Source of the DNA: an uncultured Phycisphaerales bacterium
Lineage (GTDB): Bacteria; Planctomycetota; Phycisphaerae; UBA1845; Fen-1342
Length of the DNA: 42,491 bases
Assembly (NCBI GenBank): GCA_903914415.1
Contig: CAIWOY010000235.1
Span: 1-42,491, forward strand
Reading direction: 5' to 3'
Shown here: in pieces, positions 6,956 to 24,070 of the stretch
Numbering within the stretch: position 1 is the stretch's first letter
Layout of the letters: every line of letters starts with the position of its first letter
The notes under the pieces: model-generated
Told to the model about the DNA's origin: nothing
The model's input: the letters and a program-made list of their open reading frames with translations, nothing else
The model's database searches: none
Position numbers and translations under genes: made by a program

Positions 6956-6985
6956 CGCAATCCGAGCCGCGACCGGCAGGGAGCG
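6956..6985 (+). repeat. 30-bp dispersed repeat, copy 1
   Basis: Runs CGCAATCCGAGCCGCG then ACCGGCAGGGAGCG. An identical 30-bp copy in the same orientation is at 22803-22832, where it lies inside a reading frame. This copy is intergenic. Confidence 0.9.
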
Positions 6986-7221
6986 CGGCCTGCAACTGCC
7001 AGTCGGTCTCGCGCGCCAAGACGCCTCCTTGCACCGGTGCGTGATTCCCATCTCGCCCCCCGCCCCCCGGTACGCACGAAGTTCCACTTCGTCCCACGTC
7101 CGCGCGCTCCTTGGCCCCCGTCCCCGCTTCTGCTACGATGCCCTCGCCCGGGTGGGCAATTCGCCAGCCGTTGCCGGGAGCGGGCCGTGTCCGAGCCGCT
7201 GCAATACGACGTGACCTGTAG

Positions 7222-11961: not shown

Positions 11962-11975
11962 CGTTTTTCTTCTCC

Positions 11976-12000
11976 ACGTCGGCCACGGGGGGCCGACGCT
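11976..12000 (+). repeat. Palindromic (REP-like) repeat, copy 1
   Basis: GTCGGCC and GGCCGAC arms flank a CACGGGG-type core. The reverse complement is found at 32285-32309 with one mismatch in 25 bases. Its right part is the unit that is expanded in the tandem array beginning at 11991. Confidence 0.85.
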
Positions 12001-12130
12001 ACAGCGCCCGGGCCGAGGCTACAGCGGCCGGGCCGACGCTACAACGGCCGGGCCGACGCTACAACGCCCGGGCCGACGCTACGGCGCCCGGGCCGACGCC
12101 ACAGCGCCCGGGCCGACGCTACGACGCGCC
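11991..12130. repeat. Tandem array of seven 20-bp units
   Basis: The unit GGCCGACGCTACARCGSCCG repeats at 11991, 12011, 12031, 12051, 12071, 12091 and 12111, with few substitutions; the last unit decays. There are no unique spacers, so it is not a CRISPR array. It lies between the divergent FkbM and glycosyltransferase genes. Confidence 0.95.
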
Positions 12131-12187
12131 GCACGACGCGGGCGCACGTTTCATGCCTCCAATCCGTATCGGTCGATAAAACCACCA

Positions 12188-21581: not shown

Positions 21582-22790
21582 GTGGTACGGATCGGTCTTG
21601 ATGCCCGCAGCATGACCCTGCCCCGGCCCCGCGGCACCGGGCGCAACTTGCTCGACGCGTACCGGCTCATCCCGCGCCTCCGGCCCGACTGGGAATTCCT
21701 GCTCTACCACCAGCACCCGCTCGACGACGACACTGCCCCCCACGACCCGCCCTGGCGCCATCCCAACGTCCGCCTGCGGCGCATCGACCTGCCCGGCGAC
21801 CGCTTCGACGCCTGGCTCCAGGTGCGGCTGCCGTTGGCGATCCGGCACGACCGGCCCGACCTGGTGCACTTCCCGGCCAACACGGCCCCCAAGTGGTGCC
21901 CCGCCCCCTTCGTCGCCACGATCCACGACCTGATCCCGCTGCTCATCCCCGGCGAAGCCTCAGCCGAGCAGATGGCCGCCTTCGAGCGCGGCGTGCGGCG
22001 CGCCGTCAGACACGCCACCCGCATCATCACGCCGTCCAACGCGACGCGCGACGCGCTCCGCCGACGACTCGACGTCCCGCTCGACCGCATGACCGTCATC
22101 CCTTGGGCTCCGGACGACCGCATCGCCGCCGAGGCCCGGCAGGGCTTCTGTCCACGTCGTCGGCAGCGGCTGCGCGACGCGTACGGGCTAAGCCAGCGCT
22201 GGCTGCTGAGCTTCTCTGGAGGCGCGCCGCGCAAGAACGCACACGGCGTCCTGCGCGGCTTCGCCCGCGTCCCGCCGCACGTCCGCGAGGACTTCCAGGT
22301 CGTCCTGGCCGGCTGCGAGCCAGCGGCGGTGCAGCAGGAACTCGCCCGCGAAGCGCAGCGGCTCGGCCTCGCCGACCGTTGCCGCGTGCTCGGCTTCGTC
22401 CCCTACCGCGACCTGCCGGCGCTGCTGCGCGGCGCCAGCGGCCTGCTCATGCCCAGCCGCGGCGAGGGCTTTGGCCTGCCGATCCTCGACGCGTTTGCCT
22501 GCGGCGTGCCGGTGCTTACCTCAAACCTGAGCAGTATGCCCGAAGTGGCCGGCGACGCCGCCGTGTTTTGCGACCCGGAGGACCCCGCCAGCATCGCCGC
22601 CGGCATCGCCCAACTGCTGGATCCGCCGACCGCGGCCCGTCTCGTGCCGCGCGGCTACAAGCAACTGGCGCGCTTCAGTTGGGAGCGGACGGCGGAAGCC
22701 ATCTGTGCGACATACGAGCAATGCCTGTGTGGGACCAGCTTGAAACCAGTCGCGCCGGTGACCACCGCGCTGGAGGGCTGCCCCCGATGA
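21582..22790 (+). CDS. GT4-type glycosyltransferase (mannosyltransferase-like)
   Basis: 402 residues, GT-B fold. The N-terminus VRIGLDARSMTLPRPRGTGRNL is typical of the GT4 subgroup that starts RIGIDAR. Other motifs are FVATIHDLIPLL, ITPSNATRDAL, LSFSGGAPRKN (phosphate/base contact), RVLGFVPYRDLPALLRGA, PSRGEGFGLPILDAFACGVPVL and SMPEVAGDAA. The E-x7-E motif reads E-GFGLPIL-D, with Asp for the second Glu. Predicted cytoplasmic transfer of a hexose to the lipid-linked glycan. GTG start at 21582. The TGA overlaps the ATG of the next gene (ATGA, 22787-22790). Confidence 0.92.
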   Translation: MVRIGLDARSMTLPRPRGTGRNLLDAYRLIPRLRPDWEFLLYHQHPLDDDTAPHDPPWRHPNVRLRRIDLPGDRFDAWLQVRLPLAIRHDRPDLVHFPANTAPKWCPAPFVATIHDLIPLLIPGEASAEQMAAFERGVRRAVRHATRIITPSNATRDALRRRLDVPLDRMTVIPWAPDDRIAAEARQGFCPRRRQRLRDAYGLSQRWLLSFSGGAPRKNAHGVLRGFARVPPHVREDFQVVLAGCEPAAVQQELAREAQRLGLADRCRVLGFVPYRDLPALLRGASGLLMPSRGEGFGLPILDAFACGVPVLTSNLSSMPEVAGDAAVFCDPEDPASIAAGIAQLLDPPTAARLVPRGYKQLARFSWERTAEAICATYEQCLCGTSLKPVAPVTTALEGCPR

Positions 22791-24070
22791 ACCCGTCCAC
22801 TTCGCAATCCGAGCCGCGACCGGCAGGGAGCGCCACACCCGCCGACACGACAGACGTGCACCGCCTGAAGCTTGATTGCCGAAACTACCGCGGCGACCGG
22901 CCCTGCGCGGCGGGCGTGCCGGGGGTCTGCCCCGCAGACTGCCGAGCGTACGAACCGCTGGGGCACCGCATCCTGCTCATCAAGCTCGCCGCGCTGGGCG
23001 ACGTGATCCGCACCGCCGCGCTGCTCCCCGGGCTCAAGCAACTCTGGCCGCACAGTCAGATCACCTGGGTCAGCCGTCCGAGCGGTGTGCGCGTGTTGGC
23101 GAACCATCCGCTAATCGACCGGCGTCTGCCCCTCGACGCCGAGACGCTAAGTCACCTCGAGCACGAGCGCTTCGATCTGTGCCTAAGCCTGGACAAGGAG
23201 CCGGCGCCGGCCGGGCTGGCGATGCGGATCAACGCGCCTGACAAACGCGGCATCGGCCTGAGCCTGTTCGGAGCACCCTACCCGCTCAATCCCGAGTGCG
23301 ATTACTACTTCCGGCTCGGTCTCGATGACGACCTCAAGTTCCGGCACAGCCGCAAGACGTACCCGCAACTCATCTACGAGGCGTGCGGACTAACGTACCG
23401 CGGACAGCGCTACCGCCTGTACCCCGGCGAGCCGGAGCGACAGCACGCCGCCGACTGCTGGCGGCGCCTGGGCGTCGACGAGGCGGACGTCGTGATTGGC
23501 CTGAACACGGGGGCCGGACGCGTGTTCGCCCACAAGAATTGGCCCGCGGACCGGTATGTTGAGCTCGCCACGCGCCTCGTCCGGCACCGCCACGGCTCAG
23601 CAGGAGCTTCGCCCTCCCACTGGCGCGTCGCCCTGTTGGGTGGACCCGACGAGTGCACGATCAACGCGCAGATCGCCGCGGCGTGCCCCGGCGTCCTGCA
23701 TACCGGCTGCGACCACAGCGAGCTGGAATTCGCCGCCCTCCTCGAGCGCTGCCAGGTCGTCGTCACGGGAGACACGCTGGCCCTGCACGTCGCGGTCGCC
23801 GGCGCGGTGCCCTGCATCGCCCTCTTCGGTCCGACCTGCGCCCACGAGATCGACCTCTACGGCCGCGGCGAGAGGATCGTCACCGGTTTCGCCTGCTCCC
23901 CGTGCTACCGGCGCCGTTGCGACAAGCCACGGACCTGCATGGAAGACATCGCCGTCGATCGCGTGCTCGCGGCCGTCGAACGCTGGGCCGACGATCCAGC
24001 GCGCGAGCGCGCCAGCCACGCGGCCGCGTTGCCGCGTCAGCCCCTACCGATGCTGGAGGTCGCGACGTGA
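22787..24070 (+). CDS. GT9 / heptosyltransferase-like glycosyltransferase carrying two in-frame repeat insertions
   Basis: 427 residues, GT-B fold of the ADP-heptose:LPS heptosyltransferase family: ILLIKLAALGDVIRTAALLP, GLNTGAGRVFAHKNWPADRY, VALLGGPDE, VVTGDTLALHVAVA, CIALFGPT. A Cys-containing N-terminal extension (DCRNYRGDRPCAAGVPGVCP) may bind metal. Two stretches look inserted. Residues about 6-16 are encoded by the 30-bp dispersed repeat (22803-22832). Residues 269-279 (HGSAGASPSHW) interrupt the usual short link before VALLGGPDE. Both keep the frame. The predicted role is transfer of heptose or a related sugar to the glycan. ATGA overlap upstream; GTGA overlap with the next gene. Confidence 0.92.
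   Translation: MNPSTSQSEPRPAGSATPADTTDVHRLKLDCRNYRGDRPCAAGVPGVCPADCRAYEPLGHRILLIKLAALGDVIRTAALLPGLKQLWPHSQITWVSRPSGVRVLANHPLIDRRLPLDAETLSHLEHERFDLCLSLDKEPAPAGLAMRINAPDKRGIGLSLFGAPYPLNPECDYYFRLGLDDDLKFRHSRKTYPQLIYEACGLTYRGQRYRLYPGEPERQHAADCWRRLGVDEADVVIGLNTGAGRVFAHKNWPADRYVELATRLVRHRHGSAGASPSHWRVALLGGPDECTINAQIAAACPGVLHTGCDHSELEFAALLERCQVVVTGDTLALHVAVAGAVPCIALFGPTCAHEIDLYGRGERIVTGFACSPCYRRRCDKPRTCMEDIAVDRVLAAVERWADDPARERASHAAALPRQPLPMLEVAT
22803..22832 (+). repeat. 30-bp dispersed repeat, copy 2, inside the GT9 reading frame
   Basis: Identical over 30 bases to 6956-6985. Translated as part of the N-terminus of the GT9 protein (SQSEPRPAGSA). Confidence 0.9.
23591..23623 (+). repeat. Short repeat-like insertion in the GT9 coding sequence
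   Basis: CACGGCTCAGCAGGAGCTTC then GCCCTCCCACTGG encodes HGSAGASPSHW. The GSAGASPS peptide (GEAPAEP on the other strand) is one I recall from dispersed repeats of planctomycete and related genomes. It falls in a surface-loop position of the family. Confidence 0.65.

Follow-up and report, generated by a model that had tools for sequence, protein, structure and literature searches.

The GT9 glycosyltransferase gene in the Phycisphaerales DNA analysed here, a stretch of 42,491 nucleotides that we call the window, probably contains one unit of a REP/REPIN-like, non-autonomous repeat that has become fixed in frame. The unit belongs to a dispersed repeat, GGCTCRGCNGGAGCYTCGCCCTCCC, which we name REP1; it is an insertion relative to the homologous genes, it keeps the reading frame, and it encodes a loop that is predicted to be disordered. 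The host gene (22787..24070, forward strand) is an open reading frame of 427 amino acids plus stop, whose product belongs to the heptosyltransferase family, matches PF01075 with an E-value of 3e-15 and was aligned with 19 homologues. Translation places the peptide HGSAGASPSHW at residues 269-279 (23591..23623, forward strand), the residue numbers that the initial annotation had given. Within this segment the REP1 unit GGCTCAGCAGGAGCTTCGCCCTCCC occupies positions 23594..23618 of the forward strand and is read in frame as GSAGASPS; it occurs once in the window, where shuffling the sequence 100 times gives an expectation of 0.

The alignment of the 19 homologues shows that the net gain is nine residues (nine codons, 27 nt), located ahead of the VALLGG strand, and not the 11 residues or 33 bases that had been claimed; as a figure derived from a protein alignment, the 27 nt leaves the exact ends of the insert unfixed. 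The frame is indeed kept, but by virtue of an insert of 27 nt, which is divisible by three, and not for the length originally given as the reason. Two of the 20 aligned proteins carry the insert, one encoded by the window and one by G001, the only other genome from this genus (a sister species); the expectation that close relatives would lack the segment therefore holds for 18 of the 19 homologues and fails for the closest one. The G001 protein is 91% identical to the window's and its 25-nt unit differs by two base changes. Since the insert is common only to the sister species among the homologues, we regard it as inherited, and it would have been acquired before the two species of the genus split. 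In an AlphaFold model of the protein (mean pLDDT 82), residues 267-278 (23585..23620, forward strand) form a loop between a helix (254-266) and a strand (279-284). Residues 270-273 have pLDDT values below 50, and the neighbouring ten-residue blocks score 80 before the insert and 93 after it, so that the insert is, in this model, a loop predicted to be disordered. We presume that it contributes nothing of its own to the working of the enzyme.

Further repeats were seen in this gene and elsewhere in the window, and an interruption in one GT9 orthologue. A unit of a second repeat, REP3 (CGAGCCGCGACCGNNAGGGAGCG), forms an in-frame part of the N-terminal tail of the GT9 protein (22803..22833, forward strand), where it reads EPRPAGSA; it is a perfect 31-nt match to the window's second copy (6956..6986, forward strand). 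The REP3 core has 24 copies in the window's own genome, compared with one in the reversed control, and 376 and 364 copies in G012 and G017, respectively. The window also contains a tandem array of a 20-nt, GGGCCGACGCTACA-like unit in seven registers (11970-12159), and the GT9 orthologue of G010 (L052) is interrupted in frame by about 90 nt around query residue 310, possibly another insert.

The REP1 family

From the whole genome to which the window belongs (G000, 4.74 Mb), we extracted 86 copies of REP1 with at most two mismatches, split 45 to 41 between the strands; the backwards control gave none. Counting genome copies was a check suggested by the initial annotation, which had also named the outcomes that would speak against it, a lack of other copies or the same residues in orthologues without the repeat family. 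Neither was observed: other copies are many, and the sole homologue with the same residues comes from G001, which has 53 REP1 copies. With up to three mismatches allowed, the stretches of G000 that we examined contain 93 copies in 71 clusters, either single or multi-unit; among the 21 multi-unit clusters, 16 consist of a head-to-head pair and none shows the opposite arrangement.

The REP1 unit measures 25-27 nt and has the consensus GGGAGGGCGARGCTCCNGCYGAGCC. Bases 6 and 15 form a Watson-Crick pair (G-C, A-T or C-G) in 87 of the 93 G000 copies, and the same pair is found in 224 of 232 copies from 117 stretches of other records with exact matches. This pairing fits a hairpin on the other strand, GGC-GA-RGC-TCCN-GCY-GA-GCC; in the GT9 unit, its inner part is AGC / AGGA / GCT (23599..23608, forward strand), and comparison of the copies shows the outermost bases to covary (A-T or G-C). 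Single units fold no better than their shuffled counterparts (z of 0.28, -0.40 and -0.79), and one head-to-head pair has a folding z of -4.43.

The distribution of REP1 is patchy. With at most one mismatch it is present in 25 of 101 genomes (the window's own and 100 relatives) and missing from 76, close ones included, and the numbers of copies at this threshold reach 431 in G007, 137 in G097, 69 in G000 and the above 53 in G001. Exact copies were found in nine of a sample of 392 genomes from the phylum, and a scan of named records for exact matches returned at least 117 stretches. The link to planctomycetes drawn in the initial annotation is well founded, given that nearly all of the 80 records listed have titles that name Planctomycetota; the few others, for example Chthonomonas, Deltaproteobacteria and Zixiibacteriota records, may be transfers or binning errors. 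REP1 has several of the general characteristics of a REP, being of high copy number, dispersed, arranged in inverted pairs and located mostly outside genes.

In the stretches inspected, no transposase of its own could be assigned to REP1. Among 55 inspected stretches containing a Y1_Tnp domain (some genes covered twice), REP1 flanks no RAYT. It occurs in two places among them: in L031, where the REP that flanks the RAYT is FAM2 and not REP1, and in contig C173 of G465 (a single place, catalogued as both L238 and L253), where it lies about 180 nt from the RAYT. When the 117 exact-match stretches were searched along with these 55 for a cognate RAYT, G465 C173 was the only place where a RAYT and a REP1 unit lie near each other with no other REP family intervening; a single case of this kind is not evidence for a cognate pair, and we rejected it as such. 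The 117 exact-match stretches do not support a class-3 RAYT as the partner of REP1 either. Neither a GTAG nor a CGTC tag is present in the consensus. As REP1 has no such tag and flanks none of the RAYTs inspected, we refer to it as REP-like and do not assign it to the GTAG/CGTC families.

REP1 within genes

The position of each cluster relative to genes was assigned by a codon-usage score of our own, applied to both flanks, rather than from annotation, and this score places 16 of the 71 clusters inside a gene and in frame with it, counts 41 as noncoding and 12 as one-sided, and leaves two mixed. Of 3000 random positions taken from the same stretches and subjected to the same test, 1604 are in frame and 373 noncoding. 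With fewer clusters in frame than random positions (16/71 versus 1604/3000; Fisher P 2e-7), REP1 is depleted in genes. Inverted pairs apart, there are 12 in-frame clusters, and 11 of them are translated as peptides of the GEAPAEP or GSAGASPS type (P 5e-5 under equal use of the three frames). The Pfam scan, from which clusters C213, C251 and C310 were left out, covered 11 of the 16 in-frame clusters in ten proteins, and each host is a different, unrelated protein: NuoC, DprA, a MobA-like transferase, UvrA, a ProS-like synthetase, LeuS, a CofH/MqnC-like protein, a semialdehyde dehydrogenase that we take to be ArgC (with two insertions), an OPT transporter and SecA. Besides these ten, GT9 and IleS are hosts, likewise by Pfam.

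Comparison with about 0.6 Mb of G001, in which the flanks of 21 of the 71 clusters could be matched, revealed both shared and differing sites. Both species carry REP1 at GT9, nuoC, C129, C373 and the two argC sites. C251 has one extra unit of 45 nt in G000 and C323 shows a clean difference of about 114 nt, while the differences at DNA level are less clean for the C18 copy in ileS and for C205. The ileS genes of G000 and G001 differ as well, each encoding a REP1 peptide at a place where the other does not. Such presence and absence between sister species, along with the patchy spread over 25 of 101 genomes, supports the earlier description of the repeats as mobile, in so far as sequence comparison can speak to movement. 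The same annotation suggested that they tolerate or exploit coding sequence: tolerance agrees with the frame bias, with the predicted disorder of the loop and with the depletion of copies within genes, and exploitation is not borne out for REP1. Taken together, the observation on the GT9 insert is partly confirmed, and its interpretation as the in-frame insertion of a mobile repeat is supported.

Other explanations were weighed against this one. REP1 could be a functional DNA site under selection, for example for uptake, nucleoid organization or polarity, which arises by mutation wherever the frame permits. The unit is short, highly conserved and present on both strands, its inverted pairs could act as terminators, and a bias towards permissive frames is a property of uptake sequences in other bacteria. 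We nevertheless consider this unlikely, because REP1 is added DNA (27 nt in GT9, about 114 nt at C323, 45 nt at C251), because 76 of 101 genomes, close ones among them, do without it while one has 431 copies, and because the covarying bases of the hairpin are not expected of a linear site. We are similarly doubtful that the GSAGASPS/GEAPAEP linker is kept because it improves the host proteins, an idea to which the strong frame bias and the retention of the GT9, NuoC and two ArgC inserts in both sister species would lend themselves; 18 of 19 GT9 homologues manage without the insert, the hosts are unrelated to one another, the GT9 loop is predicted to be disordered, and tolerance accounts for the same frame bias. 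Finally, the look of the peptide by itself might suggest that a low-complexity Ala/Ser/Gly loop had simply expanded, and the mostly fragmented state of the genome assemblies might suggest an artefact. Both are refuted by the identity of the 25 nt to dispersed genome copies, with no second occurrence in the window, and by the same insert in the independent genome G001, and we give them next to no credence.

We therefore return to the insertion of a REP-like unit as the most probable origin of the GT9 segment. A Y1/HUH transposase of the RAYT kind would act in trans on units such as REP1 and move them in single-stranded form. Of the units that land in genes, only those would survive whose length is divisible by three and whose translation is a soft linker, such as GSAGASPS or GEAPAEP, in a surface loop.

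RAYT domains inside housekeeping enzymes

The machinery we propose may be illustrated in G000 by a different repeat family, FAM2. A PF01797 match on contig C18 lies inside an open frame of 1629 amino acids that is ileS, the only one in G000 above the TIGR00392 cut-off, and Pfam recognizes synthetase domains on both sides with Y1_Tnp between them. The RAYT (C18 23326-23805) is enclosed by FAM2 units at 23299 (+) and 23844 (-), which form an inverted pair, and RAYT and units alike are in frame with ileS. FAM2 has 16 copies in G000 as opposed to one in G001, and at the corresponding ileS of G001 the RAYT is absent. The ileS RAYT and FAM2 of G000 thus have the composition of a REPtron, with inverted REP flanks and further copies in the genome.

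A profile built from five such embedded RAYT domains (A2) matched 52 times in 114 genomes from the order, 36 of which had at least one match. We give host genes for 44 of the 52, under putative names assigned from sequence motifs, and in 39 of these 44 the RAYT lies inside the host gene: purH in 19, ileS (two sites) in 10, gcvP in three, leuS, a DNA methylase and a DUF1156 protein in two each, and rarA in one. Pfam, applied to eight of the host proteins, recognized the host domains every time and Y1_Tnp in five cases; for PurH of G000, RarA of G003 and ValS of G419 the transposase call is that of the A2 profile alone. Outside the class to which the organism belongs, the matches to this profile are mostly in short open frames.

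The sites are recurrent. In ileS the RAYTs are in frame at two positions, before the LLVWTTTPW strand and before CIVLGHVMGED (L303, which is G000 C18, and L266, L269, L333, L356, L340, L336, L327, L329 and L328). In purH they are in frame in one loop, near position 264 of TIGR00355 (L353, which is G000 C228, and L330-L345), and in G015 and G036 the same loop is occupied by a different class of Y1 protein. Pfam also finds Y1_Tnp within purH of G032; both G032 and G036 are single-contig genomes, which argues against an assembly error. Several PurH and IleS rows stop at contig ends (e.g. L326, L329, L334, L338, L342), and in L358 (PurH of G020) in-frame PurH sequence exists only downstream of the RAYT, which marks it as a broken or misassembled copy. 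Some relatives are free of an insert: a gapless end-to-end match of purH to the family model was obtained in 10 of 27 genomes, G001 included. Further hosts are alaS of G012 (L267, C11), whose single open frame includes two class-3-like RAYT domains, and the valS-like genes of G419 (L413) and G403 (L414), from other families of the class, with one in-frame RAYT each.

Some features of G012, a genome from the window's family, are recorded here as observations in their own right. REP3 units are located near its alaS RAYTs (C11 69442 and 70111), about 13 tandem SIGVPPVPSAQSPG-type units are translated upstream of the RAYT inside its ileS (C27, L269), and the stretch with its purH RAYT is also carried by JAJVHV010000034.1 (Phycisphaerae bacterium Bin_15R).

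All 44 rows contain the HxH motif (EHVH in the G000 PurH copy), and the catalytic tyrosine motif (Y..NP) is found in 43, the remaining one being cut by a contig end. The pN/pS ratio for 12 pairs is 0.19-0.41, a measure quoted because near-saturation of synonymous sites makes dN/dS rough. By these measures the embedded RAYTs are under purifying selection and have their catalytic motifs intact. A tree of the RAYTs groups them by host gene (10 changes versus a mean of 23.7 after shuffling, with none of 200 shuffles as low) and mixes taxonomic families, and the two ileS sites are intermixed within one clade. A structural model of PurH with its RAYT, which is weak (shallow alignment of 10 rows, pTM 0.50), predicts a folded RAYT domain at about residues 336-470, joined by linkers of pLDDT about 25-30 to a folded host on both sides.

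From these observations we tentatively hypothesize that REP/RAYT elements live inside proteins, as in-frame transposases without stop codons, with REP-derived linkers, and spread into the same loop without splicing; we regard this as a real possibility, short of an even chance. The embedded transposases would sit in essential single-copy enzymes, from which the host could lose them only by exact removal, and, like homing elements, they would spread between lineages while keeping to one loop of one gene. The GT9 repeat would then be the visible edge of REP/RAYT life within proteins. By itself the GT9 insert is of modest value, as a clear case of a short mobile repeat turned into protein sequence through a measurable frame filter, and the wider RAYT finding carries more weight. 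If true, RAYTs resident in the frames of purH, ileS, gcvP, leuS, alaS and valS would constitute a new niche for bacterial transposons and would explain the oversized housekeeping enzymes of Phycisphaerae.

Comparison with known systems

In-frame REPs in genes are already known, and PMC3733652 includes uvrA and tRNA synthetases among the hosts; REP1 similarly occurs in genes of the uvrA, leuS, proS and ileS types. With the REP/REPIN elements described there, REP1 also shares a short unit, in its case a putative hairpin, many copies, inverted pairs and a mostly extragenic location. It differs from them in having no GTAG/CGTC tag and no established adjacent RAYT, and in being nearly identical in sequence across several classes of Planctomycetota, among the matches listed. 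The Rickettsia palindromic elements are a second parallel: according to PMC3733652 they, too, are palindromic repeats that enter protein genes without disturbing the frame and become translated, but they differ from REP1 in sequence, in the bacteria that harbour them and in a CGTC end that REP1 lacks.

The embedded domains resemble RAYT/TnpA-REP proteins, as these are characterized in PMC6006769, in their HxH and Y..NP motifs, and most of those scanned match Y1_Tnp. The same source mentions in-frame REPs within one RAYT subclass and reports that unexpectedly long RAYTs were discarded as 'gene fusions or annotation errors'. The ileS RAYT of G000 is like REPtrons in lying between inverted REP units. 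Unlike known RAYTs, the embedded ones have no stop codon of their own and would be read through within purH, ileS and other enzymes; in the literature that we searched, we found no description of RAYTs in frame inside housekeeping enzymes.

The embedded RAYTs can also be set beside the inteins. Inteins and their homing endonucleases bring a mobile enzyme domain into essential proteins, at positions that recur and in lineages that follow the host gene. Recurrent sites in essential proteins and lineages that track the host gene are shared by the embedded RAYTs, whose enzyme, unlike that of inteins, is a Y1 transposase and whose linkers are REP peptides.
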